Source: Methylosinus sp. C49 (GTDB taxonomy: Bacteria > Pseudomonadota > Alphaproteobacteria > Rhizobiales > Beijerinckiaceae). From it: a DNA stretch of 64,000 bases. The DNA is taken from NCBI RefSeq assembly GCF_009936375.1, contig NZ_AP022332.1, forward strand, positions 186,001 to 250,000, written 5' to 3'. Made by a program: the position numbers and the translations under genes. Every line of letters begins with the position of its first letter. The stretch's first letter is position 1. Under the pieces are notes generated by a model. It did no database searches, was not told the DNA's origin, and worked only from the letters and a program-made list of their open reading frames with translations. Of the stretch, positions 4,877-32,657 are shown piece by piece.

Positions 4877-5290
4877 ATGATACGAGCGGGGGCACATCAG
4901 CGGTTGAGAACGTGCGTGATCGCGCGCGTGCTCGCCTGCCTGCTCATGCTGCAGGGCTTCATCGTCGCCGCTGGCCCCTCTCTCGCGGAACAAGCAAGCG
5001 ACCCCGCCGGCTGGAGCGAAATTCACGCGACGGCGACCAAGCTCTGCGCTAGCGAGAACGGCGTCGCAAATCCACTGAGCGATCATTCCTCCTGCGAGCG
5101 CTGCATGTTCTGCACGCTCGGCGCACGCGGCGTCGCGCTGACCCTCGCGGCGCTCTGGCGCCTTACGGCGATCTCGCCGCCCGAACCGGATTCGCGCCAC
5201 GCGCCACGCAGCGCCGACGCCGCCGAATCCACGACGCCGCCCGGCTGGGCCAGCACCTGGTCGTCGCGCGCGCCGCCCTCCTTCTCCTGA
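4877..5290 (+). CDS. Small exported cysteine protein, DUF2946-like
   Basis: 137 residues with an N-terminal hydrophobic segment (VLACLLMLQGFIVAAG) read as a signal peptide or anchor. A Cys appears in TKLCASENG, then an H..C..C..C cluster in SDHSSCERCMFCTLGARG, followed by a weakly hydrophobic helix. This H..C..C plan resembles DUF2946 proteins, which often sit beside TonB-dependent receptors and are suspected to bind metal; that link is family knowledge, not proof. The receptor gene starts 85 bases downstream on the same strand. Two similar small proteins flank the second receptor and exbB. Membership of DUF2946 is judged by eye. Confidence 0.65.
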   Translation: MIRAGAHQRLRTCVIARVLACLLMLQGFIVAAGPSLAEQASDPAGWSEIHATATKLCASENGVANPLSDHSSCERCMFCTLGARGVALTLAALWRLTAISPPEPDSRHAPRSADAAESTTPPGWASTWSSRAPPSFS

Positions 5291-5375: not shown

Positions 5376-7652
5376 ATGTCTCGTAACGCCCTCATGCGCG
5401 GCGCATCCGCCGGCGCGCTGTCTTTCGTCGTCTTTTCATCCGCCGCTGCGCAGGAGGCCCTGCCCGCCATCGACATCTCCGGCGAGCAGCGCCCTGCCGC
5501 CGGCCCCTCGCGCGGAAAGCTGCAGCCGCCGAATGGCAAGCTGCAGCTCGACGTCGCCTCGCAGACCGGCAGCCGCCTCGGCCTGACGCCGCGCGAGACG
5601 CCCTCCTCCGTCTCCATCGTCGATCGCGCCACCATAGAAGCGCGCGGCGCGCAGACGACGCAGGAGGTCATTCAGCGCATGCCGGGCGTCATCGCCTCGG
5701 ACCCGCCGGGCTCGGCAGGGTCGATCAGCCTGCGCGGCTTCGGCGCGTCGTCGGTGACGCAAATGTTCAACGGCATCACCGTGCAATATGACGCCATCGC
5801 GGGCCGTCCGGTCGACAGCTGGCTCTACGACCGCATCGAGCTTCTCGGCGGCGCCTCCTCTTACCTCTACGGCCAGGGCGCCGTCGGCGGCGCGGTGAAT
5901 TACGTCAGCAAGGTCGCCACGCGCGGCGAGGAGCGCAATGAGGCGCTGCTGATGGGCGGCATGTGGTTCAACCGCCGCGCGTCTTACGGCTTCAACAAGC
6001 AGCTCGACGAGAATAATTGGCTGCAATTCGATCTGAGCTACAAAGGCTCGCAAGGCTGGGTCGAGGATTCCAATCATAATTCCGGCGCCGGCTCCATTTC
6101 CTGGCTCACCGATATCGCGCCCGGCCTCTCCAATACTGTCGCGGTGGAGTTTCAGAGCGAGCAGCGCGACTCCTATTGGGGCACGCCGGTTCCGCGTCCG
6201 CTCGGCGGAACGGGCACAATCGCCTGGGGAACCTTCGGCCTGCCGGTGCTCGATCTCAAATTCGATCCCGGCGTGCGCTTCAAGAACTACAACAGCCTGA
6301 AGCCGGTCTTCGACCAGCAGGTGCTGTGGGCGCGCGACATCACGGAATATAAGCTGGACGAGGAGACGAGCTTTAAAAACACCTTCTATCTCTATCGCGC
6401 CGACCGGCAATATCAAAACGTCGAATCCTATCGCTATAATGCGACCAACACGCTGATCGACCGCAGCGGGTCTTTCGCCACCCGCCACGTCCAGAGCCTC
6501 GTCGGCGACAGGCTGGAGGCGACGAATGCGACGACCCTGTTCGGCCTCGAGTCGAAAACGGTCGCGGGCATAGACTTTTCGCTCAATCAGCAGACGCGCA
6601 ACGGAGGCCTCGAATCGGGACTGGCCGTCGACACGGTCGAGCCCTATGGCTATTCGGCCTATAAGCTCTATCAGGACAATCCATTGGCGACGAGCTATGT
6701 GGGCGACGCGCGCAGCAAGCTCTACACTCTGGCGCTCTTCGCCGAGAACCGGCTGTCGCTGACGCCGCAGCTTCATCTCGTGACGGGCCTGCGCTGGGAG
6801 AAGATCAGCCTCGAGCGTTTCAATTACCGCATTCCGACCCTGCCCAGCGCCTCGAACCCCTATGGCAATCCCGCCTATTTCGGCAAAGGATACGAGCCGA
6901 TCACCTGGCGCGCCGCGCTGATGTACGACGTGACCAGGGAGGCGAACGTCTATGTCTCCTACAGCACGGCTGCCGATCCGCCCTCCGGCATTCTGCTCAC
7001 CAACAACGCCGGCGGCGTGCGCAATTTCGAGCTCACCACCGGCTGGCAGATCGAGGCGGGAACGAAGCTCGATTTCTGGGAGGGCAGAGGCTCGGCGACT
7101 CTCGCAGGCTATTTCATCGAGCGCAACAATGTCACCACTTCCGATCCGGCCAATCCCAACAGCGTCATCAATGTCGGCAAGCAATCGTCGAACGGCATAG
7201 AGGCCAATGTCGGCTTGCAGGTGTTGGATAATCTCAGCGTGCAGGGCAACGCGGCCTGGATCAATCCGAAATTCGAGAGCTTCGAGGAGGCGGCGACGAT
7301 CGCCGGAACCACGCTACGCGTGTCGCGCGCCGGCAATCGGCCGACCAATATGGCGCGTTGGATCGCCAATGGCTGGATCACCTGGGATTTCCTGCCCGAT
7401 TGGCAGGCGACCTTTGCGGCGCGCTTCGTCGGCGATCGCTTCGCCGACAACGCCAATACGATGCGCATACCGGCCTATACGACTTTCGACGCCGGCCTCT
7501 CCTGGCGCGTGACGCCCAATGCGAAGCTGACCGCCATGCTGAAGAACATGACCGACGCCGCTTATGTCGAATGGGCGTCGGGCGGCACTGGACCGCTACT
7601 GCGGCTCGGCCAGCCGCGCACGGTCGAATTGTCGCTGAAGATGACCTTCTGA
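5376..7652 (+). CDS. TonB-dependent outer-membrane receptor (siderophore type)
   Basis: 758 residues from ATG 5376, chosen because AGGAGC lies 9 bases upstream and the signal peptide then begins directly (MSRNALMRGASAGALSF to AAAQ). The mature N-terminus carries LPAIDISGE, a Ton-box-like segment, followed by a plug domain (ETPSSVSIVDRATIEARGAQ, then SISLRGFGASSVTQMFNGI) and a 22-strand barrel with a C-terminal aromatic (LSLKMTF). The plug wording is that of FhuA/FpvA-like siderophore receptors. It imports a metal chelate driven by TonB-ExbBD, probably from the set at 27.8-29.7 kb. It is followed after 12 bases by a PepSY membrane protein. The substrate is unknown. Confidence 0.93.
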   Translation: MSRNALMRGASAGALSFVVFSSAAAQEALPAIDISGEQRPAAGPSRGKLQPPNGKLQLDVASQTGSRLGLTPRETPSSVSIVDRATIEARGAQTTQEVIQRMPGVIASDPPGSAGSISLRGFGASSVTQMFNGITVQYDAIAGRPVDSWLYDRIELLGGASSYLYGQGAVGGAVNYVSKVATRGEERNEALLMGGMWFNRRASYGFNKQLDENNWLQFDLSYKGSQGWVEDSNHNSGAGSISWLTDIAPGLSNTVAVEFQSEQRDSYWGTPVPRPLGGTGTIAWGTFGLPVLDLKFDPGVRFKNYNSLKPVFDQQVLWARDITEYKLDEETSFKNTFYLYRADRQYQNVESYRYNATNTLIDRSGSFATRHVQSLVGDRLEATNATTLFGLESKTVAGIDFSLNQQTRNGGLESGLAVDTVEPYGYSAYKLYQDNPLATSYVGDARSKLYTLALFAENRLSLTPQLHLVTGLRWEKISLERFNYRIPTLPSASNPYGNPAYFGKGYEPITWRAALMYDVTREANVYVSYSTAADPPSGILLTNNAGGVRNFELTTGWQIEAGTKLDFWEGRGSATLAGYFIERNNVTTSDPANPNSVINVGKQSSNGIEANVGLQVLDNLSVQGNAAWINPKFESFEEAATIAGTTLRVSRAGNRPTNMARWIANGWITWDFLPDWQATFAARFVGDRFADNANTMRIPAYTTFDAGLSWRVTPNAKLTAMLKNMTDAAYVEWASGGTGPLLRLGQPRTVELSLKMTF

Positions 7653-7664
7653 GAGGAGGCGAAC

Positions 7665-9212
7665 ATGAAGAGATATCTCTATCTCGCTCATCGCTGGCTC
7701 GGGATCGCGGCCTGTCTCTTCATGGCCATGTGGTTCTTCTCGGGCGTCGTCATGATGTATGTCGGCTATCCCAAGCTCTTGCCGTCGGAGAGGCTGGCGG
7801 CGCTGCCGCCGCTCGATGCGGCGCGCTGCTGCGTCGCCCTCTCCCGTGCTTTCGACGCCGCGGGAGAGGGCGGCGCGCCGCAATCCGTCCGCCTCACCAG
7901 CATCGCCGGCGCGCCGACTTTCATTTTCGGGCGGCGCGCGAAGGACAGCGGCCCGCAATTCACGGCGGCGCGCGCCAGCGACGGCGCGCGCGTGACCGGC
8001 GTTTCAGAGGAGAACGCCATCGCCGCCGCGCGCGCCTTCCTCGGCGGCGAGGCGAGCTATGACGGAATCGTCGACGAAGACCAATGGACGCATTCCAAAG
8101 GTCTCGACGGACTGCGCCCGCTGCATCGCGTCTATATGTCCGATGCGGATTCGACGCTGCTCTATGTCTCTTCCGTCACTGGCGAGGTGGTCCGCGACGC
8201 GACGCGGACGGAGCGCCTCTGGAACTGGGCCGGCGCCTGGATCCATTGGCTCTATCCGTTCCGCGGCGGCTGGTTCGAGGCCTATTGGCATGACATCATC
8301 GTCTATTCCTCGCTCGTCGGAACCGTGCTCGCCGTCACCGGCCTCGTCGTCGGCGTCATGCGCTGGCGTTTTCGCGCGCCCTATAGGACCGGCGCGCGCA
8401 CGCCCTATCGCGAAGGCATGATGAAATGGCACCATATCGTCGGCCTCATCGGCGGCGCGACGGCCGTCACTTTCGTGTTCAGCGGCCTGATGTCGATGAA
8501 CCCGTGGAAAATCTTCGAGACCAGATCGGCCTTCGACGCCAAACCCTATTATGGCGGCGCGCTCGCGCCCGAGCGCTTCCCTCTCTCGGTCGCGCAAGCG
8601 CTGACGAAATTCGCCGATGATGGATTCGCGGCGCGCGAGCTCGAGCTGCGCGTCATCGACGGCGCCGGCTATTATGTCGGCTTCAGCGCCGGCGGCGCGA
8701 CGCGAATCTTGCGCGCAGAGGCCGACGCCGCGCCCGCCTTCACGCTGCCGCTCGACGAGTTGAAGCGGCTCGGCGCGCGGCTCGTCCCCGACGCGAAAGT
8801 CACGGCGGCGACGGTGATGGAGACCTACGACTTCTATTATTTCGCGCGCGCGCCACACACCATGCATGGCGATGTCGACAAGCGCCTGCCTGTATTGCGG
8901 CTCGAGTTCGACGACGCCGCCGGAACCTGGGCGCATATCGACCCGCATACGGGCGCCGTGCTCGGCAAGCTGGATTCGGGGCGCCGCGCGAGCCGCTGGC
9001 TGTTCGCCTTTCTGCACAGCTGGGACGCGCCGGCGCTGCTCGCGGCGCGGCCCTTGTGGGACGTGCTCATGCTGGCGCTCAATGGCGCGGGCTTCGCGCT
9101 CAGCGTCACCGGAATCGTCATCGGCTGGCGACGGCTGAAGCGCAAATTCGGCGAGCGCCAAGCGCCGGCGCGATCGGCGTCGCCGAGCTTGGCGAGATCG
9201 AGCCGCGCATGA
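7665..9212 (+). CDS. PepSY-associated inner-membrane protein (iron-regulated type)
   Basis: 515 residues with four predicted membrane helices: about residues 8-35 (WLGIAACLFMAMWFFSGVV), 208-232, 262-285 (HHIVGLIGGATAVTFVFSGL) and 465-488. Large periplasmic loops lie between them; conserved His residues (HRW, HDIIVY, HHIVG) could bind haem or support metal reduction. Such proteins are commonly encoded next to siderophore receptors and thought to act in ferric-chelate reduction. GGAGG precedes the ATG. The last residues (SPSLARSSRA) come from DNA nearly identical to part of the pentapeptide-repeat gene at 9841-9879, so the native C-terminus may have been replaced. Confidence 0.88.
   Translation: MKRYLYLAHRWLGIAACLFMAMWFFSGVVMMYVGYPKLLPSERLAALPPLDAARCCVALSRAFDAAGEGGAPQSVRLTSIAGAPTFIFGRRAKDSGPQFTAARASDGARVTGVSEENAIAAARAFLGGEASYDGIVDEDQWTHSKGLDGLRPLHRVYMSDADSTLLYVSSVTGEVVRDATRTERLWNWAGAWIHWLYPFRGGWFEAYWHDIIVYSSLVGTVLAVTGLVVGVMRWRFRAPYRTGARTPYREGMMKWHHIVGLIGGATAVTFVFSGLMSMNPWKIFETRSAFDAKPYYGGALAPERFPLSVAQALTKFADDGFAARELELRVIDGAGYYVGFSAGGATRILRAEADAAPAFTLPLDELKRLGARLVPDAKVTAATVMETYDFYYFARAPHTMHGDVDKRLPVLRLEFDDAAGTWAHIDPHTGAVLGKLDSGRRASRWLFAFLHSWDAPALLAARPLWDVLMLALNGAGFALSVTGIVIGWRRLKRKFGERQAPARSASPSLARSSRA
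9172..9210 (+). repeat. 39-base segment copied from the pentapeptide-repeat gene
   Basis: Bases 9172-9210 match 9841-9879 in 37 of 39 positions, in the same orientation. At 9841-9879 the DNA is part of the minus-strand pentapeptide gene; here it is read on the plus strand as the end of the PepSY gene. It runs directly into the HAD-gene fragment at 9208. Confidence 0.8.
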
Positions 9213-9250
9213 CCACCGTGCTGGTGGCGCCTGACGCCTGGCTATGAGGA
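9208..9250 (+). pseudogene. Decayed fragment of the HAD nucleotidase gene 3' region
   Basis: Bases 9208-9250 align with 3652-3693 inside the HAD gene at 38 of 42 positions with one inserted base, which shifts the frame after MTTVLVAPDA. Similarity fades further on. It is too short to encode anything. It marks a duplication or rearrangement involving the HAD gene, which now lies 5.5 kb upstream, at the far side of the TonB receptor block. Confidence 0.75.
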
Positions 9251-9281
9251 GCGCCGCGGACTACTGGCGACGGGCCACCCC

Positions 9282-9320
9282 CACGGGGCCGACCGAGCCC
9301 ACCGACCGAGCCCACCGACA
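9282..9320 (+). repeat. Short direct repeat CGACCGAGCCCAC
   Basis: Two adjacent copies of a 13-base unit followed by a partial third, in the 199-base gap between the PepSY gene and the next gene. No other feature is visible in this gap apart from the HAD fragment. Confidence 0.6.
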
Positions 9321-9411
9321 TGGAACGTCATTTGCGTAATCGGCCAGCGAGGTCGCGCTTCGACGAATTGAAGCCGCCTCGAAGCCTTTTCGATGGTTTG
9401 GGGAGCGAGCC

Positions 9412-9765
9412 ATGGTCGATTCGATTGGCGCCGTCGTGGTGGGAACGTTCGGCCTCGCGGCGGAGGCGGCGGCCAAAGGCGCGGCGGGCGCGGCCGTCAT
9501 CGACGGCTATGACGCCCTGAAGTCTGGCCTTTCCACCTTCGCCAAGAGGGAGATCGCCGAGCTGGAGCCGCGGCCGCGTTCGATCGGAATGCAAATCGCC
9601 GTCGCTGAAATCATCGACGCCCAATCGGAGGAGACGAGAACGGCGCTTTGCGTCCTCGCCGCGACGCTCGTCGCCCGGCTGAGGGACGGCGCTCCGGCCG
9701 CCGGACTCGACATCGGCCGCCTCGCCGCGCTGGAAGCGCAGCTCAGCGCCCTCGCTCCAAAATAG
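9412..9765 (+). CDS. Small hypothetical protein
   Basis: 117 residues from ATG 9412 with a good GGGGAGC ribosome site 6 bases upstream. I do not recognise a family. The N-terminal third is Ala/Gly-rich and weakly hydrophobic (IGAVVVGTFGLAAEAAAKGA), the rest is helical with a stretch of acidic and basic residues (STFAKREIAELEPRPR). No Cys cluster or catalytic motif is seen. Its end overlaps the end of the oppositely oriented pentapeptide gene by 23 bases. Codon use looks like that of the host. Confidence 0.5.
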   Translation: MVDSIGAVVVGTFGLAAEAAAKGAAGAAVIDGYDALKSGLSTFAKREIAELEPRPRSIGMQIAVAEIIDAQSEETRTALCVLAATLVARLRDGAPAAGLDIGRLAALEAQLSALAPK

Positions 9766-10456
9766 GGGCCGCCGGCGGCAGCCGCGCGCTGTCGAGATCG
9801 GCGCCGTGGAAGCTCGCGCCGGCGACATCCGCGCCGGAGAGATCGGCATCGCCGAGCTTGGCGTGATCGAGCCGCGCATTGCGCAAGCTCGCGCCGGCAA
9901 AGCGCGCCGAGGCCAGCACGGCATGGGTGAGATTGGCGCCGGTCAGATCGGCGCCATCGAAGATCGCGGCGGTGAGATCGGCGCGCACCGGAACCATGCC
10001 CTGATTGGCCGGATCGGCGCCGAGATCGGCCTCGACCAGCTTCGCCTTCACGAAGCGCGCGCCGCGGCCGCCGCCGATGATGCGGGCGCGCGTCAGATCG
10101 GCGCCGGAAAAATCCGCATCGTCGAGAATGGCGGCATAGAGGATCGCGCCGGAAAGATCGGCGCCCGAGAGATCGGCCTCGCGCAGATCGGCGCGGGTGA
10201 GATTGGCCTCGCCGAGCCGCGCGCCGACGAGCTTCGCCCCGGCGAGCCGCGCAGCGAAGAGATCGGCGCGCCGAAGGTCCAGCCCCGAGAGATCGAGGCC
10301 GGAGAGATCGAGATCGGTGAGCGCCACGGGCTTTCCGGCGGAGGCGGCGATCAGCTGCTCTATATCGGCGCGGCTTCGATCCGCCGCCGCGGCCGCCAGC
10401 GGCGCGAGACTCAGGACGACGGCGGCCAAAAGGCGGCTCGCTCGGGCCGAGGACAT
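9743..10456 (-). CDS. Exported pentapeptide-repeat protein
   Basis: 237 residues. A signal peptide (ASRLLAAVVLSLAPLAAAAA) is followed by a short helical part (RADIEQLIAASAGKPVALTD) and then from about residue 47 to 225 by A(D/N)LXX repeats, such as LSGADLSGAILYAAILDDAD and ADLTGANLTHAV. Such repeats form a right-handed quadrilateral beta-helix; the periplasmic location is inferred from the signal. A break of about 20 residues (GADPANQGMVPVR) interrupts the helix. The function is unknown; cytosolic members mimic DNA, which an exported one would not. The repetitive DNA could have promoted the recombination seen at 9172-9210. Confidence 0.85.
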   Translation of the reverse strand: MSSARASRLLAAVVLSLAPLAAAAADRSRADIEQLIAASAGKPVALTDLDLSGLDLSGLDLRRADLFAARLAGAKLVGARLGEANLTRADLREADLSGADLSGAILYAAILDDADFSGADLTRARIIGGGRGARFVKAKLVEADLGADPANQGMVPVRADLTAAIFDGADLTGANLTHAVLASARFAGASLRNARLDHAKLGDADLSGADVAGASFHGADLDSARLPPAAPILERGR

Positions 10457-10688
10457 TATGAAGGCTCCCTCGCTCTGCGTCGCTTCTGCGGCGACGGCGG
10501 GCGAGCCTACCCCCGAGACGCCGCCCCGGCTGCGGGAAAGAATGCGCGATGCGCTGGAAAGACGTCCCGCCGCCGGCGCGGCGATCGGCCCCTATTTCCG
10601 CGATTGACAGGGCGGCGGCCTTGCCGCCTATAGCCCTGACCCTTTCTGCGGGCCGCCTGCCCGCGACCTCTCGGAGCTGGACGATTTC

Positions 10689-11546
10689 ATGCCGCACACT
10701 GGTCTCGAGAATCTCATCACCACCGCCTTCGAAGACAGGGCCAATATCGACGCCTCCACGCAGGGCGACATTCGCCACGCGGTCGAGAGCGCGCTGCGTC
10801 TGCTCGATTCGGGCAAGCTGCGCGTCGCCGAGAAGATCGAGGGCGCGACCGGCCCCGGCTCCTGGAAGGTCAATCAATGGCTGAAGAAGGCGGTCCTCCT
10901 CTCCTTCCGCCTCAATGATATGAGCGTGATCGAGGGCGGGCCGGGCGGCGCGAGCTGGTGGGACAAGGTTCCCTCGAAATTCGCCGGCTGGGGCGCGGCC
11001 GAGCACAAGGCGGCGGGCTTCCGCTCCGTGCCGGGCGCGATCGTGCGTCACTCCGCCTTCGTCGCGCCGGGCGTGATCCTGATGCCCTCCTTCGTCAATC
11101 TCGGCGCCCATGTGGACGCGGGGACCATGGTCGACACATGGGCGACGGTCGGCTCCTGCGCGCAGATCGGCAAGAATGTGCATCTTTCCGGCGGCGTCGG
11201 CATTGGCGGCGTGCTGGAGCCGCTGCAGGCCGGCCCCACCATCATCGAGGACGATTGCTTCATCGGCGCGCGCTCGGAGATCGTCGAGGGCGTCGTCGTC
11301 GGCCAAGGCTCGGTGATTTCCATGGGCGTCTTCATCGGCGCCTCGACCAAGGTGATCGACCGCGCCACCGGCCAGATTCACATCGGCTATGTGCCGCCCT
11401 ATTCGGTCGTGGTGTCGGGCAATCTGCCGGGCAAGCCGCTGCCGGACGGCTCGGCCGGGCCATCGCTCTATTGCGCCGTCATTGTGAAGACCGTCGACGC
11501 GCAGACGCGCGGCAAGACGGCGATCAACGAGCTGCTGAGGGACTGA
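10689..11546 (+). CDS. dapD: 2,3,4,5-tetrahydropyridine-2,6-dicarboxylate N-succinyltransferase
   Basis: 285 residues, the succinylase step of lysine and meso-diaminopimelate synthesis. The N-terminal helical domain ([16 protein letters not shown]) is followed by a left-handed beta-helix of hexapeptide repeats ([36 protein letters not shown]) and the C-terminal [11 protein letters not shown] ending typical of DapD. GGAG is found upstream of the ATG. It partners with dapA at 48.6 kb in the same pathway. Its stop overlaps the start of the next gene. Confidence 0.97.
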
Positions 11547-24142: not shown

Positions 24143-26647
24143 TCACTTCACGAAGGACACATCGAACAGCGGCGGCTCGTCTCCCTCGAAGAATATGCCG
24201 CGCTCGCCCTTGTCGCGCCCGAACTCATATTTGGCCGACATCGTGTATGTGCGCTGCGGGAACGGATGGAACAGGAAGTATTTGTAATTGCCGATGTTGT
24301 CGATGCCGAAGTCGAAGCTGATGTGCTTGTTCCACTTGTAGTGGATCTTCGTGTCGACGACGAAGAAGCGGTCGAAGCTCTGATAGACGCCATGGGCGAT
24401 GTCGTTATTGGCGAGCGTCGTCCACATCTGGCCCTGATAACGGGCGGCGACCGTGAAGGCCCAATGATCGTCCGGCCGATAGGTCGCCTGCATGGTGGCC
24501 CGCCAATCCGGCACATTGGGCACGCGCTTGCCGGCGACAGAGAGCGCCCAATTGTCGTAGTTCGTGCCGCCCGACGGCGCCCATTTACTGTCGGAAATGA
24601 CGCGGGCGTTGAGATAGGTCACGCTGCCGACGAGCTCGAGCCCTTTGACGACGACATTGTCCTTGCGCGCCGCCAGCTCGACGCCGCTGTTGCGGACGCG
24701 ATCGACATTGGTCGTCTGCGAGGCGGTGAAGTTCTGCCCGGTGACGAAAGTGCTCTGCGAGATGATCGCATCGCGCACTTCCTCGTCGAAGAGCGAGACG
24801 CGCACGGAGCCGTCCGCGATCTTGCGCTCGACCGCGAGCTCCTTGCTGAGCGCCACTTCCGGCCGCAGATTGGGGTTGGGATTGACCACCGTTCCGGTCG
24901 CGCCCGGGATCGTCGTCAGATTATAGAGCTCCTTGGCCGTCGGAAAGCGATTGGCGAGGCCGATCGAGCCGGTGATCGTCCAATCCTCGTCCGGCGTCCA
25001 TTGCAGCGAGCCCTTGGGCGAGAAGCGCGTGTGATAGAGATTGGGCTGATAGATCGGCAGCATGCTCGCCGCCGTCGCGGTCGAGCCGAAGCCATTGGCT
25101 TTGATGCTTCCGAGCGACTGATTATAGCCATCCGTCGCCGCCCAATGCTCCCAGCGGCCGCCGACGGTGAATTTGAACTCCTTCGAGATCTTCCACGAAT
25201 CTTGCGCCCATAGAGCCTGGGTGCGCGTCGTGCCATTGCCGATCGAGGCCGCGACGCCATAGGACGAGGCCATGCCGCTCGTCCAATCGGTGGTGAGCCA
25301 GGTGGGATTGTTCAGATGGAACTGATCCCCATGCAGGCCGAAGCTGATGTCGTGGCCCGCGAGAACGCCGTCTGGCCGCAGAATGCCCTTGAGGTCGAGC
25401 AGCGTCCAATAGGTGCCGTTGTAGCGGACATCCTTGCCGGTCGAGGAATAGCCGACCGGCGCGGCCGTGTAGGGCGAGCGCTGATCGGACTGGAGATAGG
25501 TGAAATGCGAGGCCGAGACCTCGAAGTCGAAGGGGCCGCCGCTGTTGGATTTCACCGCGAGCGCATTGGTGAGCATTTTCTCCTGCACGCGGTAATAGCC
25601 ATTGGCGAAGCTCTGCATCGCCGAGGAGCCGATGCTGCCCGTTCCGCTCGTCGCGCCGAAGGCCTGCAGGCCGCCGGAGACATAGGATTGCGGGATAGAG
25701 GTTCCGTCATTGCTCCAGAAGCCGAGCGTGTAGGTCGCGCGAATGGTCGGCGAGAAGTCGTAGGCCAATTTCAGCTTGGCGTTGACCTGATCGTTCTCGA
25801 GATTGCCGGTGGCGCCGAGAACGGTGGCCGGCCCGCCGAATTTTGTGTTGCCGAAATAGGCGCCCGGCCAGCCATAGAGGCTGCTCGACGTCACATAGGT
25901 GAGCGGCTGCGTCGTGCCATGGGCGTAATTGCCGGTGAGGAACCAGGAGAAATCGCCGATCTTGTCGCCGACGGAGGCGCTCGTCACCTCGGTGTGGAAC
26001 AGTCTGCTCGTTCCATAGAGCGAGAAGTCTTGCAGCGAGACGCTCTGCTTGGCGGTGACTTCCAGCTTGTCGGGCATGCGCGTGGTGATCTGCAGCACGC
26101 CGCCCATCGAATTGCCCGGATATTGCGCCGAGAACGGCCCGTAGAGCATGTCGACGCGCTCGATCTCTTCCGGCGCGACGAGGCCCCAGCGCGGCGCGCC
26201 GATGCTGTTGTCATTGCCGATGAGGGCGGTGAGCAGGAGATCGTCGGCATAGACGAGGCTGCGGGCGCTCGACGAGACGCCCCAGGTGCGCGTCTGCAGC
26301 ACGGCCTGCGTGTCGCCATTGTTGCGTTTGCGCACGAACAGGCTCGGCAGATATTTGACCACGTCTTCCGTGTCGATGACGTTGATCGTCTCGTCGATCT
26401 GCTTGCGGGTCACGCTGGCGACGGTGTTCGGCAGATCGAATTTCTGCACGAAGGCCGGCTTGCCGTCCGGCAGAGTGGGCGACCACACGGAGGCCGGCGC
26501 CGGCCGGCGCGACTGCGCGGGCTGCCCCTCGCCGCTGATGTCGATCGTCGGCAGCGACTCCTGGGCGCGGGCCGGGAGAATGGCGGCGGAGCAGACGATG
26601 AAGAGCGCGCCGGCGGAGACGCCGCGCAGCAGATGGTGGCGATACAT
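24143..26647 (-). CDS. TonB-dependent outer-membrane receptor, second copy
   Basis: 834 residues from ATG 26647, where a signal peptide begins (MYRHHLLRGVSAGALF to PARAQ). The mature N-terminus has LPTIDISGE, nearly the same Ton-box-like segment as the first receptor, followed by a plug (ETINVIDTEDVVKYLPSLFV, DMLYGPFSAQYPGNSMGG) and a C-terminal barrel ending in an FDVSFVK strand. The plug resembles those of OMR receptors for metals or cobalamin-like ligands, but the substrate is not determinable. Preceded by a DUF2946-like gene and divergent from exbB-exbD-tonB, which should energise it. Ends at a clear terminator. Confidence 0.93.
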   Translation of the reverse strand: MYRHHLLRGVSAGALFIVCSAAILPARAQESLPTIDISGEGQPAQSRRPAPASVWSPTLPDGKPAFVQKFDLPNTVASVTRKQIDETINVIDTEDVVKYLPSLFVRKRNNGDTQAVLQTRTWGVSSSARSLVYADDLLLTALIGNDNSIGAPRWGLVAPEEIERVDMLYGPFSAQYPGNSMGGVLQITTRMPDKLEVTAKQSVSLQDFSLYGTSRLFHTEVTSASVGDKIGDFSWFLTGNYAHGTTQPLTYVTSSSLYGWPGAYFGNTKFGGPATVLGATGNLENDQVNAKLKLAYDFSPTIRATYTLGFWSNDGTSIPQSYVSGGLQAFGATSGTGSIGSSAMQSFANGYYRVQEKMLTNALAVKSNSGGPFDFEVSASHFTYLQSDQRSPYTAAPVGYSSTGKDVRYNGTYWTLLDLKGILRPDGVLAGHDISFGLHGDQFHLNNPTWLTTDWTSGMASSYGVAASIGNGTTRTQALWAQDSWKISKEFKFTVGGRWEHWAATDGYNQSLGSIKANGFGSTATAASMLPIYQPNLYHTRFSPKGSLQWTPDEDWTITGSIGLANRFPTAKELYNLTTIPGATGTVVNPNPNLRPEVALSKELAVERKIADGSVRVSLFDEEVRDAIISQSTFVTGQNFTASQTTNVDRVRNSGVELAARKDNVVVKGLELVGSVTYLNARVISDSKWAPSGGTNYDNWALSVAGKRVPNVPDWRATMQATYRPDDHWAFTVAARYQGQMWTTLANNDIAHGVYQSFDRFFVVDTKIHYKWNKHISFDFGIDNIGNYKYFLFHPFPQRTYTMSAKYEFGRDKGERGIFFEGDEPPLFDVSFVK

Positions 26648-26727: not shown

Positions 26728-27093
26728 TCAGGAGAAGGGAGGCGGCGCGCGGGTCGGCGCATTGTCGTCGTCGCGCGAGAAAGGCGCGCCGGCGAAGGCG
26801 AAGATGGCGCCGGCGGCGTGCGCGCGAGGGGGCTGCGTCGCCACCCACGCCATTGTGGTCAGAAGCGGGGGCGCCCCGGCGCCGAGCTCGCAGAAAGCGC
26901 AGCCGCCATGCCGATGAGATTGGTCGCTTTTGGGCGCTTGCTTGCCGATCTCAGCGGATGGCTCGCCCGCCTCGACATGGGCGACGAGGCAGAGGCGCGC
27001 CGCCTCGCCATGCGCGCGCATGCCGCCGAGAGGCGCGGTCAGCGCCTGGCCCAGCAGGGCGAGAAGGAAGAGGAGCTTGGCGATCGCCGCCAT
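26728..27093 (-). CDS. Small exported cysteine/histidine protein, DUF2946-like
   Basis: 121 residues with a signal peptide-like N-terminus (AKLLFLLALLGQALTAPLGG). A Cys is found in ARLCLVAHVE and then the His/Cys group SHRHGGCAFCELGAG, followed by a hydrophobic segment (PPLLTTMAWVATQP). The plan C, then H-H-C-F-C matches the protein upstream of the first receptor (HSSCERCMFC), and again it precedes a receptor, 80 bases upstream. A metal-handling role is inferred from context and residues only. Confidence 0.62.
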   Translation of the reverse strand: MAAIAKLLFLLALLGQALTAPLGGMRAHGEAARLCLVAHVEAGEPSAEIGKQAPKSDQSHRHGGCAFCELGAGAPPLLTTMAWVATQPPRAHAAGAIFAFAGAPFSRDDDNAPTRAPPPFS

Positions 27094-27232
27094 CGCGCGC
27101 GTTAACTCTATCGATAAACCAGCTTCGAATTAGCGCGCTTCGTCAAATAATTCCAAGACCCCGCAGATTGTCAGAAGTTAAAAAATCCGTTAAGAGACAT
27201 TTATGTCACACACGGGGGGACAGCGCAGAGAA
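27094..27232. promoter_or_regulatory. Divergent, AT-rich control region
   Basis: Between the leftward receptor operon and the rightward exbBD-tonB operon. Strikingly AT-rich compared with the surroundings (for example CAAATAATTCC and GTTAAAAAATCCGTTAAGAG). It must contain promoters in both directions and is the likely site for a metal-responsive regulator. I found no recognisable Fur, Irr or RirA box by eye. Confidence 0.5.
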
Positions 27233-27622
27233 ATGCGCGCGATCTGCGCGATCGCCGCTGTTTGCGCGCTCATTTTCGCCCTCCTCGTTTCTGGCGCGCC
27301 GCATCGCGTTGCGAGCGCGCCCGCCGATGGACGCGCGGGCGCGCAGGTCGCCGCCCGCAGCGTGTGCCATGACGTGCTCTCCGATACGCGCGACGGAACG
27401 CCGGACAGTCCTGTCAAGAAAGGCGCGCGATGCCCCTGCTGCCTCGCCGCGCATTCTGGTCCGGCCGTTCTTCCCGACCGCATCTCGGTCGCCCTGCGCC
27501 GCGAGACCGCGGCGCGTCCCGCGGTCTATCGCGCCTTCGCCGCCGCGCCGCCGCCTTTTGCTTTGTCGCAAGCCGTCAATGGCGCCCGAGCGCCGCCCGC
27601 CGCTGGCGTGGCTCTCTCCTGA
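27233..27622 (+). CDS. Third small exported cysteine protein, DUF2946-like
   Basis: 129 residues from ATG 27233; an in-frame ATG at 27203 is an alternative. A signal peptide (AICAIAAVCALIFALLVSG) precedes VCHDVLSD and then ARCPCCLAAHSGPAVLPD, a CxCC motif. The order Cys, then a Cys cluster, then a short tail matches the two other small proteins, though the His before the cluster is missing. First gene in the exbBD-tonB direction, 171 bases before exbB. Function unknown. Confidence 0.55.
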   Translation: MRAICAIAAVCALIFALLVSGAPHRVASAPADGRAGAQVAARSVCHDVLSDTRDGTPDSPVKKGARCPCCLAAHSGPAVLPDRISVALRRETAARPAVYRAFAAAPPPFALSQAVNGARAPPAAGVALS

Positions 27623-27793
27623 CGACAGTCCGATTCCGCGCCGATACGCGCGGGAGCGACGAAAAGGGTTTCGACGGCGCCTCCCCGTTCGAGCGAATCG
27701 CCGCCGTCAGACGAACAAAATAATCAACAACAACAAACGCTGATCGACGGCGGCCGCCGTGCGATCGGGGAACCCCAAGCGCGAGTGCGTCCT

Positions 27794-28435
27794 ATGGATT
27801 ACGGCTCAATTTCTCCTGTCACCATGTTCCTGAACGCCGGCCCCGTGGGCAAGGTGGTCATGGCCGTCCTGCTGCTGGCGTCGGTCTGGACCTGGGTGCT
27901 GATCGTCGAGGGCGTCGTCGCCGTCGCGCGCATCGGCAAATCGGCGCGCGCCGCACGCTCGGGCGGCCCGGCCGGTCTGCTCGCGCCGATCGAGGCCGCC
28001 GGCGAGCACGCCGCCTCCTTCGATCTTCCCGGCGAGTCCATCGGCGAGAAGCGCGAGCGCGTCGCCGAGATCATGAGCCGCGTCGGGCGCGAGCTGATGA
28101 CCAAGGCGGAGGGTGGCCTGCCCAATCTCGCCGTCATCTCCTCTGTCGCGCCCTTCGTCGGCCTGTTCGGCACCGTCTGGGGCATTATGACCAGCTTCGC
28201 CGGCATCGCCCAATCGCAAGACACCAGCCTCGCGGTGGTCGCGCCGGGCATCGCCGAGGCGCTCGCCGCCACCGCCTATGGCCTCGCGGCCGCCATTCCC
28301 GCTTCGGTCGGCTATAACCGCATCGGCGCGGCTTTCGCGCGCGCCGGCCAGCAGGTCGCCCATTATGTCGAGGACAAGGCGCTCGACGCCACCAGCGGCC
28401 ACATCGTGACAGCTAGAAAGCGGGAGGCCGCGTGA
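27794..28435 (+). CDS. exbB: Biopolymer transport protein ExbB
   Basis: 213 residues, MotA/TolQ/ExbB proton-channel family. Three membrane helices: near residues 15-38 (VVMAVLLLASVWTWVLIVEG), about 112-140 (PFVGLFGTVWGIMTSFAGIA) and about 155-178. The family motif GLFGTVWG and the later AEALAATAYGLAAAIPA are intact. It forms with ExbD the inner-membrane motor that transfers proton-motive force to TonB. ATG 27794 is used rather than the GTG at 27785. Its stop overlaps exbD (TGATG). Confidence 0.95.
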   Translation: MDYGSISPVTMFLNAGPVGKVVMAVLLLASVWTWVLIVEGVVAVARIGKSARAARSGGPAGLLAPIEAAGEHAASFDLPGESIGEKRERVAEIMSRVGRELMTKAEGGLPNLAVISSVAPFVGLFGTVWGIMTSFAGIAQSQDTSLAVVAPGIAEALAATAYGLAAAIPASVGYNRIGAAFARAGQQVAHYVEDKALDATSGHIVTARKREAA

Positions 28436-28974
28436 TGGCCGGACTTCCGACGCGCTTCAAGAATGGCGACAGCCTCTATCAGCCGCTCGCCGAGATAAAT
28501 GTGACGCCGCTCGTCGACGTCATGCTGGTGCTGCTCATCATCTTCATGGTGACGGCGCCTCTGCTCGCCAAGGGCATGAAGGTCAATCTCCCGCAGTCCA
28601 AGGCGGCGCAGCCGCTCAATCCCAAGGAGCCGATCGTCGTCGCCGTCTCCAAGGACGGCAAGGTGGCGCTCGGCGCCGATGAAGTTTCGCCCGAGGCGCT
28701 CGTCGACGGCATCAAGGCGATGATGGGCTCCGACACGAGCCGCATCGTTCATGTGCGTGGCGACAAGGAGGCCAATTACGGCGAGGTGATCGCCGTGATG
28801 GACAAATTGGCGACCAATGGCATCACCCATATCGCCATACTCACCGACTCGCGGCCCAAGGGCGCGGCGACGCCGGCCGCAGCCGCTGGAGCGAAGCCCG
28901 CTGCGGCGAGCCCGGCCGCTCCTGCGGCGGCGATTCCTGCGGCGGCGGTTCCCGCGGGAGGGGCGGCGAAATGA
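28435..28974 (+). CDS. exbD: Biopolymer transport protein ExbD
   Basis: 179 residues. The single N-terminal membrane helix contains the essential Asp in NVTPLVDVMLVLLIIFMV, followed by the periplasmic domain (VHVRGDKEANYGEVIAVMDK). The C-terminal 40 residues are an unusual low-complexity tail of Ala and Pro repeats (AAPAAAIPAAAVPAGG), longer than ordinary ExbD ends at about 140 residues. Coupled to exbB upstream and to tonB downstream by a 4-base overlap. Confidence 0.95.
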   Translation: MAGLPTRFKNGDSLYQPLAEINVTPLVDVMLVLLIIFMVTAPLLAKGMKVNLPQSKAAQPLNPKEPIVVAVSKDGKVALGADEVSPEALVDGIKAMMGSDTSRIVHVRGDKEANYGEVIAVMDKLATNGITHIAILTDSRPKGAATPAAAAGAKPAAASPAAPAAAIPAAAVPAGGAAK

Positions 28975-29690
28975 CGGATGCGATCCTCTCCTCCTTCGAG
29001 CACGAGCGGACGCCCATCGGCGCCCCGCCGCCCGTCAGACCCGGCTGGCTGCGGCCGGCGAGCTTCGCAGGCGTCATCGTCGCCCATGCGGCGATCGGCT
29101 GGCTTCTGCTGAAACTCGCGGTGCCGAGCATCGCCAGCCTCGACTCGGTCAGCATGGAGCTCATCCCGCAGGGCGATTTCTTCGAAGCGCAGGAAGTGAG
29201 CGCCGCGGAAGAGGAGCCGCCGCCGCCCGAGGAGATCGAGCAGCCCGATCTCGCTATTCCGCCGCCGCAAGTGATGGCGCCCGATGCGCCGTCGCTGCCG
29301 CAGCAGAAAGAGATCGTCGAGAAAAAGAAGAAGATCGTCGAGAAGAAGAAGGACGTCGACCGCGATAAGAAGCGCGAGGCCGTCGCTCAGCGCAGGTTGG
29401 GCGCGCCGGAAGGGCAGTCACAGAGCAATGGCATGTCGCAGAGCGCCTATAAGGCGCTGCTCGCGGCGGCGATCCGCAGCCACACGCCCGGCACAGCAGG
29501 GCTCGGCGAGGGCACGGCGCAGTGCACCTTCCATGTGACAGCCGGCGGCGGCATCACCAGCATCTCGGTCTCCGGCTCGTCGCCCGCCCATGCCGCTCTC
29601 GCGCGGCGAATATTGGGCTCGGTCCATGCGCCGCCGCCTCCCGGCGGATCGTTCGTCGCAAGTCAGAGCTTCCACTTCCACGCCAACTGA
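28971..29690 (+). CDS. tonB: Energy transducer TonB
   Basis: 239 residues. A cytoplasmic N-terminus of about 30 residues precedes the anchor helix (FAGVIVAHAAIGWLLLKLAV), then an acidic Pro-rich stretch (EEEPPPPEEIEQPD) and a Lys-rich stretch (EKKKKIVEKKKDVDRDKK), and then the C-terminal domain from about residue 155 (SQSAYKALLAAAIRSHTPG to GGSFVASQSFHFHAN). The C-terminal domain is of the short rhizobial type. It connects ExbBD to the Ton box of the outer-membrane receptors. Four proteins resembling its last domain follow. Confidence 0.93.
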   Translation: MTDAILSSFEHERTPIGAPPPVRPGWLRPASFAGVIVAHAAIGWLLLKLAVPSIASLDSVSMELIPQGDFFEAQEVSAAEEEPPPPEEIEQPDLAIPPPQVMAPDAPSLPQQKEIVEKKKKIVEKKKDVDRDKKREAVAQRRLGAPEGQSQSNGMSQSAYKALLAAAIRSHTPGTAGLGEGTAQCTFHVTAGGGITSISVSGSSPAHAALARRILGSVHAPPPPGGSFVASQSFHFHAN

Positions 29691-29717
29691 CGCGACGAAA
29701 AGATCGAGAGACGCGAA

Positions 29718-30086
29718 ATGAGATTGTCATCGCTGACGATCGCCGGTCTGATGTCCGTCTCCGTCCTCGCCGCAGCAGACGCCGCCGCAAAGCCGCGCGC
29801 TCCCGCGGAGCCGGCGGCGAATGCGTCGGCTTCGGCGGCGGATCACATGTACAAATCGCTGCTGGCGCAGGCGATCCGTCGCCACACGCCACGGCGAGTG
29901 ACCATCGGCCGCGGCGCTGCGATTTGTAAATTCCTCGTCGGGAAAAGCGGCGGCATTACGATCATCGCCGCCTCGGGCTCATCGCCCGCTCACGCGACCC
30001 TGGCGCGGCGGATCATCGAATCGCTCCGCGCGCCGCCGCCGCCCGACGGGGCCTTTGTCGCCTCCCAGAGTTTTCACTTCAACTGA
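29718..30086 (+). CDS. Secreted TonB C-terminal-domain-like protein A
   Basis: 122 residues. A signal peptide (SSLTIAGLMSVSVLAAADAA) and a short Ala/Pro linker lead straight into a domain closely matching the end of TonB: MYKSLLAQAIRRHTP, then SGSSPAHATLARRI and PPPPDGAFVASQSFHFN. No anchor helix and no long Pro/Lys spacer are present. Its similarity to TonB at the previous gene is much higher than that of the next three, so it looks like a recent duplicate. If exported, it would be free in the periplasm, where it could occupy receptor Ton boxes or bind another partner; this is a proposal. Confidence 0.8.
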   Translation: MRLSSLTIAGLMSVSVLAAADAAAKPRAPAEPAANASASAADHMYKSLLAQAIRRHTPRRVTIGRGAAICKFLVGKSGGITIIAASGSSPAHATLARRIIESLRAPPPPDGAFVASQSFHFN

Positions 30087-30113
30087 GCGCAAAAAAAGAT
30101 CGAGGGACGTTCA

Positions 30114-30617
30114 ATGAAAAGAATCGCGATATTGATGATCGCCGGGCTCGTCTCCGGCTCCGCTCTCGCGGTCGAGGGCGAAGCGGCGGCTCCCGCCGCG
30201 GCCGAATCCGCCGCCTCGCCTGCTCCCGCTCCCGCAGTGGCCGAGCACAAAGCCACGGAAGCCAAGCCCAAGGCAAAGCCGCAAAAGGCCGCCGACAAGG
30301 AAAAGAGCAAGGACGCGGACAAGAGCAAGGACAAGAAGCAAGCCGAGAAGGCGAAGCCCGCCCTCTCCAAGCAGGCCTATGTCAAGCTGCTCGCCGCCGA
30401 GATCAAGCGCCACACGCCGAAGGCCTCCGACGCGCAGACCGGCTCCATCCATGTCGCCTTCACGATCGGCGCCGGCGGCCGCGTCGTGTCGCACAAGGTG
30501 CAGAGCGCCTCCAATCCGGCGCTCGAGCCCGTCGTCAATCAAATCCTCGCCGCGGTTCACACCGTGTCGCCGCCCGGCGGCTCCTTCTCCGCGGTGCAGG
30601 AATTCAACTTCCACTGA
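30114..30617 (+). CDS. Secreted TonB C-terminal-domain-like protein B
   Basis: 167 residues. Signal peptide (RIAILMIAGLVSGSALA), then a long Ala/Pro segment and a Lys/Asp/Glu-rich segment (KAADKEKSKDADKSKDKKQ) that mimics the spacer of TonB, then the domain (SKQAYVKLLAAEIKRHTPK to PPGGSFSAVQEFNFH). It therefore keeps spacer and C-terminal domain but replaces the membrane anchor by a signal peptide. If the signal is not cleaved it could still be tethered; a cleavage site at LAVEG is plausible. Confidence 0.8.
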   Translation: MKRIAILMIAGLVSGSALAVEGEAAAPAAAESAASPAPAPAVAEHKATEAKPKAKPQKAADKEKSKDADKSKDKKQAEKAKPALSKQAYVKLLAAEIKRHTPKASDAQTGSIHVAFTIGAGGRVVSHKVQSASNPALEPVVNQILAAVHTVSPPGGSFSAVQEFNFH

Positions 30618-30632
30618 TTGGCGGGAAGATTC

Positions 30633-30965
30633 ATGAAATCCTCGGCCCTCGCGATAGCGCTCTTCCTCTGCGCGGGGGCCGCCCTCGGCGCCGAGTCGCG
30701 GCAACCGAATGTTTATGTCGCGCTCGTGAATGCGACTTTGGCGAGACAGAGCTTTCCGGCGCCGCATCCCGCAGGACGGGTCGACGCGGAGATCGAGATA
30801 GGCGCGGACGGATATGTCGTCTCCTCCCGCCTGCGGGGTTCCGATGCGCGCCTCGTGACGTTGACGCGCGACAGGCTGGCGCGAGTCAGCCTGCCGCCTC
30901 CGCCCCGTGGACAATGCCACCTGCGCTATCGTTTCGTTTTCGTGCGTGAAGGACAGGCCAGATGA
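30633..30965 (+). CDS. Secreted TonB C-terminal-domain-like protein C (diverged)
   Basis: 110 residues from ATG 30633 with GGGAAG upstream; a TTG at 30618 is less likely. A signal peptide (SALAIALFLCAGAALGA) is followed directly by a diverged domain (YVALVNATLARQSFP, then EIEIGADGYVVSSRLRGSD and LPPPPRGQCHLRYRFVF). It shares the repeated order helix, G-strand, PPPP turn and last strand with its neighbours but not the FH ending, and has a single Cys in the last loop. Assigned to the group by position and layout. Confidence 0.68.
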   Translation: MKSSALAIALFLCAGAALGAESRQPNVYVALVNATLARQSFPAPHPAGRVDAEIEIGADGYVVSSRLRGSDARLVTLTRDRLARVSLPPPPRGQCHLRYRFVFVREGQAR

Positions 30966-31321
30966 GACGCTCGATCTTTATTCTCGCTTTCACCATGCTC
31001 GCCTGCGCGGCTCAGGCCGCGGGCGACGCCAATGGTCCGGCTCCGGCGGCGCAGGCGCCCTCCGGCCTCTCGCAGAGCAAGTTTCTCGGCCTGCTCTATA
31101 GCGAGATCGCCAAGCGCACGCCGATGGCGAGCCCCGCCGGCCCCGGCTCGGCGACGGCCAGCTTCCACATCGACGCCGCCGGCAAGGTCGACAAGGTGAC
31201 GATCGCTCAGTCGAGCAGTCCGAAACATGCGGAGATCGTCCGCAAGATTCTCTCCGGCTTGATCGCCCCGCCGCCGCCCGGCGGCTCCTTCGACGGCTCG
31301 CAGCGATTCAACTTCCACTGA
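30962..31321 (+). CDS. Secreted TonB C-terminal-domain-like protein D
   Basis: 119 residues, start overlapping the stop of the previous gene by 4 bases. Signal peptide (SIFILAFTMLACAAQAAG), short Ala/Pro linker, then the domain (SQSKFLGLLYSEIAKRTP, then ATASFHIDAAGKVDKVTIAQ and PPPPGGSFDGSQRFNFH). The domain wording is close to TonB and protein B. Last of the four tandem anchor-less paralogues. Confidence 0.8.
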   Translation: MRRSIFILAFTMLACAAQAAGDANGPAPAAQAPSGLSQSKFLGLLYSEIAKRTPMASPAGPGSATASFHIDAAGKVDKVTIAQSSSPKHAEIVRKILSGLIAPPPPGGSFDGSQRFNFH

Positions 31322-31382: not shown

Positions 31383-32657
31383 ATGAAACGCGCCGCGCTC
31401 GCCCTCCTCGCCCTCGTCGCCGCATCGAGCGCTCTCGCGCAGGAAAAAGCCGGCCGCGAGGAGAAAATGGGCAAGATGGCCCATGCCGCGCCGCCCGCCT
31501 GCGCCGATCCGCTGCCCAAATGCGCGGTCAGCGCGACGCCCTCCTTCGGCGCCGATGGACGGCTGTGGCTGACCTATTCTGGCGCCGGCAAGGTCTATGG
31601 CGCGGTTTCCAGCGACAATGGCAAGAGCTTCGCCCCGCCCTTCGTCATCGCGGCGCCGGCCGGAACGCTGGACGACAATGGCGAGGCGCGGCCCAAGATC
31701 GTCGCTCTCGCCGATGGGACTCTCGTGGCGAGCTTCACCACGCGGCCCGAGAAGAGCTATGAGGGCACGGTCTTCGTCACGCGCTCGACCGACGAGGGCA
31801 AGAGCTTCGCGCCGCCGCAGCCGCTCGTCGACGACAAGGGCCAGCGCTTCGAGACCTTCATCGTCGGCCCCCAAGGGCGCCTCTTCGCCGCCTGGCTCGA
31901 CAAGCGCGACGCCGCCAGAGCGAAAGCCGCCGGCGAGAGCTTCGAGGGCAGCGGCGTCGCCGTCGCCTGGTCGGACGATGGCGGCAAAAGCTTCTCCGGC
32001 AAGAGCATTCTGCTCGATCACAGCTGCGAGTGCTGCCGCATCGGCGCGGCGCTCGACCGCGACGGCCAGCCCGTCTTCATCTGGCGCCATGTGTTCGAGA
32101 ATAATCGCCGCGACCATATGGCGGCCAAGCTCTCCGCCGATGGCAAGACGCTGACCGGCTCGCGCGTCAGCCTCGACGATTGGGCGACCACTTGCCCGCA
32201 TCAGGGGCCGGCGATGGCGATCGACGCCGCCGGACGTTGGCACATCGCATGGTTCACGCGCGGCAAGACGCGCCAGGGCCTGTTCTATGCGCGCAGCGAG
32301 GATGGCGGAAAGAGCTTCTCCGAGCCTCAGCGCATCGGCGACGCCGAGCGCGCGCCGCAGCGTCCGCAGCTGCTCGTCGTCGGCGACAAGCTCTATCGCG
32401 CCTGGAAGGAGTTCGACGGAACGCTGACGACGATCCTCGCGCAGAGCTCGCGCGACGGCGGCGAGAGCTTCGACGCGCCGCGCGTGCTGGCGCAGACGGC
32501 GGAAGCGTCGGACCATCCTCTGCTCGTCGAGAGCAAGGGCGTCGCCTATCTCTCCTGGCTGACGCAGCAGGAGGGCTACCGGCTGATTGCGCTGGAGCGC
32601 GGCCACGCCGCCACGCCGGCGCCAAAAGCCACCGCCGGGCTCGCGACGAAGCGCTGA
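31383..32657 (+). CDS. Exported Asp-box (BNR) beta-propeller protein with cysteine cluster
   Basis: 424 residues with a signal peptide (RAALALLALVAASSALAQ). Five Asp-box motifs are visible: SSDNGKSF, STDEGKSF, SDDGGKSF, SEDGGKSF and SRDGGESF, as in sialidase-like propellers. The Arg triad of true sialidases is not apparent, so enzymatic activity is doubtful. Cysteines are in PACADPLPKC near the start, the cluster HSCECCRIG in the middle, and TTCPH later, which together could bind a metal or form disulfides. It follows the TonB-like array after 61 bases on the same strand, which suggests a role in the same uptake system. Confidence 0.8.
   Translation: MKRAALALLALVAASSALAQEKAGREEKMGKMAHAAPPACADPLPKCAVSATPSFGADGRLWLTYSGAGKVYGAVSSDNGKSFAPPFVIAAPAGTLDDNGEARPKIVALADGTLVASFTTRPEKSYEGTVFVTRSTDEGKSFAPPQPLVDDKGQRFETFIVGPQGRLFAAWLDKRDAARAKAAGESFEGSGVAVAWSDDGGKSFSGKSILLDHSCECCRIGAALDRDGQPVFIWRHVFENNRRDHMAAKLSADGKTLTGSRVSLDDWATTCPHQGPAMAIDAAGRWHIAWFTRGKTRQGLFYARSEDGGKSFSEPQRIGDAERAPQRPQLLVVGDKLYRAWKEFDGTLTTILAQSSRDGGESFDAPRVLAQTAEASDHPLLVESKGVAYLSWLTQQEGYRLIALERGHAATPAPKATAGLATKR

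Follow-up and report, generated by a model that had tools for sequence, protein, structure and literature searches.

Introduction

TonB energy transducers are recognized by a globular C-terminal domain (CTD) and by an N-terminal membrane helix with a motor-docking histidine, and how a few TonB molecules are shared among many TonB-dependent receptors is, to our knowledge, an open question. Published systems are described here from the portions of each cited paper that were available to us. According to these, the TonB helix docks to the motor via an SHLS motif and TonB CTDs bind their targets via strand addition (PMC12204202), and the Ton boxes of receptors pair with the third CTD strand (PMC13253070). 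A second relevant system is Bordetella CruR (DUF2946), the product of an upstream open reading frame (ORF) in which a CXXC motif senses copper and a RAPP motif stalls the ribosome, and copper represses the genes downstream of it (PMC9426467). Here we analyze 64,000 nucleotides of Methylosinus sp. C49 (contig NZ_AP022332.1, positions 186,001 to 250,000; hereafter the window), in which an exbB-exbD-tonB operon continues into four small genes, A to D, whose predicted products resemble the CTD of TonB without its anchor, and in which CruR-like ORFs head both this operon and a divergent receptor gene.

Results

Directly behind tonB (28971..29690, plus strand) lie, on the same strand, A (29718..30086; 122 amino acids), B (30114..30617; 167), C (30633..30965; 110) and D (30962..31321; 119), so that all four small ORFs placed there by a preliminary description of this DNA are present. 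Each product has a predicted signal peptide followed by a CTD, and B has between the two the Lys/Asp/Glu-rich spacer already remarked on in that description. The genes are closely packed, with gaps of 27 nt between tonB and A and between A and B, 15 nt between B and C, and a 4 nt overlap of C and D. Given this start/stop spacing, and as a simple scan of the plus strand from tonB to D found no terminator-like site, A to D are probably co-transcribed with tonB on the single transcript previously proposed.

Several lines of evidence relate these products to TonB. By BLASTP, TonB and A are 65% identical over 78 amino acids (E 2e-32), B and D 40% identical (E 2e-18), and C and D 28% identical (E 4e-5); C as query also matches the TonB of another Methylosinus genome, G065 (E 2e-5), and scores 31.7 bits with a CTD profile built without C. 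In Pfam (E<=1) and NCBIfam (E<=0.1) searches TonB, B, C and D all stay under the curated cut-offs and A has no listing; relative to the gathering cut-offs of PF03544/PF13103, D reaches at best 17 of 24.6 bits and B 15.2 of 22 bits, and the TonB of the locus falls short as well. A profile of the CTDs run against PDB sequences gave 11 matches at E<=1, all of them TonB (best E 0.012). AlphaFold2 models of D and C (predicted local distance difference test scores, pLDDT, 85.3 and 83.9) both have the alpha-beta-beta-alpha-beta order. In Foldseek searches, ranks 1-23 for the D model are all TonB/TolA/HasB/FusB CTDs (best E 8.5e-4), and so are ranks 1-18 for C (no E below 0.001, the best being 0.018), whose model is not independent evidence since its alignment contained TonB-like rows. 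Chance resemblance was rejected, the BLASTP, PDB profile and fold results being concordant. Judged by sequence, A, B and D are clearly relatives of the TonB CTD and C more weakly so; the globular domain of energy transducers is present in all four, in C on weaker sequence evidence, and the outcome that the preliminary description had named as fatal to its proposal, no match for at least three of the four, was not observed. Its remark that C has drifted agrees with the weak scores of C, and its statement that A is nearly the same as TonB at the end holds loosely, with 26 of the 34 terminal residues identical by hand count.

The arrangement is conserved beyond the source genome. Ten Methylosinus genomes were searched, the window genome being G000 (4.70 Mb) and its relatives including Methylosinus sp. 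Sm6 (L022) and M. sporium DSM 17706 (L023), and nine carry one to four CTD genes in the operon, D among them in all nine. The order after tonB is A-B-C-D in G000 and G060, A-B-D in G061, B-C-D in G042, and B-D in G064, in G066 (with a 285-aa protein containing two CTDs) and in G067 (with one further CTD). G062 has B-D with tonB on a separate contig and B cut by the contig end, G063 has D and a remnant of B, and G065 has no CTD gene after tonB; A and C thus occur in three of the ten genomes each and B in eight. In Methylosinus sp. Sm6 a 285-aa protein with a signal peptide and two tandem TonB-type CTDs lies behind the same operon (L062 6046-6903). A profile of D matches 78 of 347 family genomes at 1e-5, and matches better than 1e-30 are restricted to Methylosinus (9/10) and a sister genus, g18, presumably Methylocystis (33 of the 34 genomes listed, the 34th being a fragment at a contig end; the count is among matches listed, and the 249 genomes with no match, which lie outside the list, could include g18 genomes without D). 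No third genus with a match better than 1e-30 was found among 347 genomes of the order (E<=1e-9) or 289 of the class (E<=1e-6), samples that overlap the family. The 19 g18 loci opened, from 17 genomes and all picked for a D hit, have one CTD gene in 10 cases, two in 4 and three in 5 (one with tonB off the contig), and D follows tonB in every examined locus where tonB is on the contig. In g18, further CTD-like profile matches are listed away from these loci, and L127 has an unlinked tonB.

The distinction between these proteins and TonB lies at the N-terminus. The TonB of the locus, assigned by synteny with exbBD since its Pfam TonB_2 score is below cut-off, has a membrane helix with a histidine (VIVAHAAIGWL), a Pro/charged spacer and a CTD. 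This membrane histidine is present in 28 TonBs of both genera and absent from the signal segments of A to D in the window, which do not have the motor-docking helix of an energy transducer. A home-made signal-peptide filter, applied across 28 loci of the two genera, accepts 55 of the 58 anchorless CTD proteins as against 2 of the 35 TonBs; it tests every Met ahead of the CTD, and a near-identical version limited to the first start passed 88 of 773 mostly spurious ORFs, a rate not strictly comparable. Of the three proteins that the filter misses, A of G061 carries an Arg within its hydrophobic stretch, B of G062 lies at a contig end, and the third is an ORF without a signal at its listed start. 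The data support the view, put forward in the preliminary description, that A to D are anchorless TonB-CTD paralogues with predicted, cleavable export signals in place of the TonB membrane helix. If the segments stayed uncleaved, A to D would be membrane-anchored, weakly diverged TonB paralogues; several members do have spacers of 40-80 residues resembling that of TonB, some (the third CTD gene of g18) have poor cleavage sites, and cleavage is predicted by a home-made filter, but the failure of 33 of the 35 TonBs in a filter that 55 of the 58 proteins pass, together with the missing histidine, makes this reading very unlikely. A lipoprotein reading of D was also rejected, as orthologues have AIA or LAG in place of its MLAC.

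The members of the array differ in age and in constraint. In a tree of 94 CTDs (85 columns kept; support modest), D forms a single clade across both genera (89/50; 88/70 including the second CTD of the double protein) and so looks older than the genus split. The TonBs of the locus form a clade (98/93) within which the A clade (100/100) is nested, in a subgroup (81/77) with Methylosinus TonBs and three g18 TonBs, and A would therefore be a late tonB duplicate; the placement of C, X and the double-CTD protein is unreliable owing to long branches. The recent duplication suggested in the preliminary description accordingly applies to A and not to the whole array, in which D is common to the sister genus and gene number varies from 0 to 4; D appears to be the old core and C a patchy member. 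Median ratios of nonsynonymous to synonymous substitution (dN/dS) for the CTDs are 0.17 for D (36 pairs), 0.21 for TonB (28), 0.23 for B (28), 0.30 for A (3 pairs) and 0.43 for C (3), with 0.16 for ExbD (21). D and B are by this measure under purifying selection, and a pseudogene reading of the two was rejected. That the array consists of functionless left-over duplicates would account for the variable gene number, the B remnant in G063 and the high dN/dS of C, which comes from three pairs; it is already unlikely for D and B in view of their ratios and the retention of D in 9/10 Methylosinus and the sister genus, and we consider it highly improbable overall. In 16 of the 18 g18 loci with tonB on the contig (L069, L070, L112-L116, L119-L125, L128, L129), the PPPPG turn is gone from the locus TonB, and Cys residues, perhaps joined as a disulphide, have appeared both in helix 1 and at the turn; D keeps PPPPG.

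A link to copper, which the preliminary description had missed, comes from two CruR-like ORFs that head divergent operons. On the minus strand, divergent from the exbB operon, is a TonB-dependent receptor (24143..26647; Pfam Plug and barrel) with a Ton-box-like ESLPTIDI after its signal peptide, a motif checked on the N-termini of 8 orthologues. It is headed by an ORF (26728..27093, minus strand; PF11162 25.8 bits, cut-off 23.7) in which 46 residues separate CXXC from a RAPP that lies 3 residues from the end, within the range of the CruR family, where an ORF heading a receptor gene has 45 residues (within one or two) between CXXC and the C-terminal RAPP. The plus-strand ORF (27203..27622; PF11162 25.6 bits, same cut-off) heads exbB (27785..28435; PF01618 1.7e-29) and exbD (28432..28974; PF02472 3.4e-33) and has both motifs, with 7 residues after RAPP, but its spacing of 48 is 3 residues beyond that of CruR and outside the reported range. 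When 2,594 ORFs from the window and from 38 loci were scanned for the CXXC...RAPP pattern, 41 matched. Of these, 25 precede exbB (spacing 48-51) and represent 25 of the 28 loci that have D, 14 are receptor-side ORFs (7/9 Methylosinus, 7/19 g18; spacing 45-46), and 2 precede other receptors; the ten loci without D had none. The locus is likely a copper-starvation uptake system. Judged by family membership, copper control of the receptor appears more secure than that of the exbB operon, whose CruR-like ORF has a spacing outside the reported range.

Other observations bear on the copper setting. One of the 2 remaining hits lies at 4877-5290 of the window, with a motif spacing of 54 and a PF11162 score of 21.7 bits that falls short of the 23.7 cut-off. 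It is followed by a receptor gene (5376-7652) with a Ton-box-like EALPAIDI and by a PepSY_TM gene (7665-9212), in the order reported for CrtA copper operons. No PepSY gene is found at the locus behind receptor 24143-26647, and CrtA-family receptors mostly have one. The available portion of a copper transcriptome paper (PMC12811070) has nothing on the present locus, and PMC9601215, as far as available, deals with methanobactin receptors. Directly after the CTD genes is a conserved gene for a BNR-repeat protein with a CECC motif (31383..32657, plus strand; PF13088 1.3e-11), found within the fetched stretches in 7 of 9 Methylosinus and 16 of 19 g18 loci, which is possibly part of a copper route.

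Discussion

The arrangement is consistent with a copper-starvation Ton system whose extra soluble CTDs are periplasmic, non-energised, Ton-box-binding accessory proteins that influence receptor choice, a possible interpretation that we advance tentatively from the sequences. Low copper would lead to both divergent operons being made, and A to D would be cleaved and remain in the periplasm. D and B, with A and C in some strains, would bind Ton boxes or another strand partner via the third strand of the CTD and could not pull; by holding, shielding or handing over the Ton boxes of copper receptors they would influence which receptors, out of many, have access to the limited energised TonB. In a more specific form, which is doubtful, the copper-gated operon would steer a shared TonB pool by supplying a single energised TonB together with several non-energised look-alikes; these would occupy Ton boxes, and TonB would then serve copper receptors selectively out of dozens in competition. 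The strand-3 residues Q94, F96 and F98 (model numbering) are commonest in both D and TonB. G065, the only Methylosinus genome without CTD genes, keeps exbBD-tonB and has one PF00593 match, and this receptor is missing from it. Across six genomes, more PF00593 matches tend to go with more CTD genes beside tonB (matches/CTD genes 1/0, 7/1, 16/1, 18/1, 29/3, 45/4). An attempt to match the TonB arginine that forms a salt bridge to the Ton box with the basic residue preceding TP was dropped, as the register could not be fixed.

Several points weigh against this proposal. D-specific helix-1 residues (S19, K20, Y26, A30) occur in 27-28 of 28 D proteins at positions where TonB most often has another residue, and this would also fit a different partner. 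The trend in PF00593 matches and CTD genes is post hoc, drawn from six related genomes and confounded with genome size. A plain blocker made together with TonB would be counter-productive, B has decayed in G063, and a second CTD set in the genome has no tonB or receptor gene that we found near it. The case for copper control is weaker for the CTD genes themselves than for the receptor, given the spacing in the exbB-side CruR-like ORF, and the binding, localisation and expression of A to D are predictions. In Escherichia coli, TonB fragments present in the periplasm are said to prevent uptake, a statement not used as evidence here. Neither literature searches nor the available portions of PMC11658791, PMC9249621 and PMC12905483 confirm it. 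As an observation on the source genome, its 45 PF00593 matches are many for 4.7 Mb; G065 of the same genus (2.8 Mb) has one.

If the partner is not a receptor, the soluble CTDs might act on TonB or ExbD, forming hetero-pairs with the TonB CTD that tune the share of active TonB. TonB-family CTDs can pair via the Ton-box strand, and in the FusB CTD homodimer the C-terminal strand of the partner competes with the receptor box (PMC13253070); A, given its identity to the TonB CTD, would be a natural partner. In g18, however, TonB has altered its turn and D has kept it, so the two do not obviously co-vary, and D has helix-1 residues of its own, leaving this an unlikely explanation. Alternatively, the CTDs could bind imported cargo in the periplasm, a copper complex or peptide, and pass it inwards from the receptor with the BNR protein. 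Copper-type regulation, the CECC-bearing conserved neighbor and the binding of ferredoxin by the FusB CTD (PMC13253070) are in keeping with such a role, but mature D lacks Cys and contains a single Met, and a His at the C-terminus is not universal (54% of 28 D proteins have Arg there), so that we regard cargo binding as quite unlikely.

The second CTD set bears on a further alternative, in which the CTDs now act outside the Ton pathway as binders of an envelope component, peptidoglycan or another. This set, in G000 (C1:2291209-2292924; L142 about 9210-10925), comprises two ORFs with signal peptide and CTD ending in FNFH and FYYH and a third recognized by match only; one member has orthologues (80-95%) in four other Methylosinus genomes. 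It lies near CobW and D,D-carboxypeptidase genes, and the latter neighbor, the off-locus CTD-like matches listed in g18, the spacers of tens of Lys- or Pro/Ala-rich residues and the proposed part of the TonB-like SjdR of Anabaena in peptidoglycan structuring (PMC8597729) would suit an envelope ligand. Against this, the examined D genes follow tonB wherever tonB is on the contig, and D and the receptor are absent together in G065; the alternative strikes us as rather unlikely. Competitor, receptor adaptor, plug chaperone and peptidoglycan binder, the roles listed in the preliminary description, are thus all candidates. Ton-box binding that influences receptor choice is the reading we retain, at the tentative level given above.

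A conserved operon with natural anchorless TonB CTDs beside its own tonB, small, predicted soluble, in tandem and in a culturable methanotroph genus, offers a genetic handle on TonB sharing. In addition, the locus suggests that alphaproteobacterial methanotrophs, whose methane oxidation depends on copper, have a copper-uptake route equipped with its own Ton motor.

Searches of open-licence papers turned up no Ton operon described as having soluble CTD paralogues. The preliminary description had held that no described system has this layout; that stands for the operon and not for its parts, since tandem secreted CTDs elsewhere and the second set in G000 mean that the architecture is not unique to this operon. 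Among 58 genomes of the class searched with PF03544, 34 had matches, and 8 stretches chosen for short or clustered frames were opened. L134 (4026-5133), from another alphaproteobacterial family, encodes three tandem TonB_C proteins with export signals, the third perhaps a lipoprotein, and L136, L138, L139 and L140 hold further anchorless secreted CTD proteins. In L135 (3996-5143; other family), a 141-aa TonB_C ORF with a hydrophobic start lies directly behind a full-length TonB, possibly an independent similar layout. L134 and L135 share with A to D an export signal or hydrophobic start, a TonB-type CTD and tandem genes. Unlike the present locus, L134 has LysR, AAA/M41-protease and pyridoxal phosphate (PLP)-enzyme genes and no exbBD-tonB or receptor among its scanned neighbors, and its proteins exceed the PF03544 cut-off. 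We saw no published description of the L134 or L135 arrangement. Proteins of this kind are thus more widespread, and what is new is the probably copper-gated Ton operon with soluble CTDs.

With the TonB-ExbB-ExbD systems (TonB CTD PF03544/PF13103, TIGR01352) the locus shares the alpha-beta-beta-alpha-beta CTD, the exbB-exbD-tonB operon and an adjoining receptor with a Ton-box-like motif; A to D differ in having export signals, no motor-docking helix and library scores under the cut-offs. HasB and FusB, TonB paralogues with dedicated partners, have specialized CTDs that are among the closest folds of C and D, and HasB is an inner-membrane protein. FusB is an inner-membrane protein too (PMC13253070), whereas A to D have no anchor. 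The cruR-crtA/bfrG-PepSY_TM operons of Bordetella likewise have a CXXC...RAPP ORF ahead of the receptor, and ExbBD/TonB genes are reported in some crtA loci (PMC9426467, PMC12914433). What sets the Methylosinus locus apart from them is that exbBD-tonB has its own, longer-spaced CruR-like ORF and is joined by genes for soluble CTDs and a BNR protein, which the available portions of those papers do not mention.

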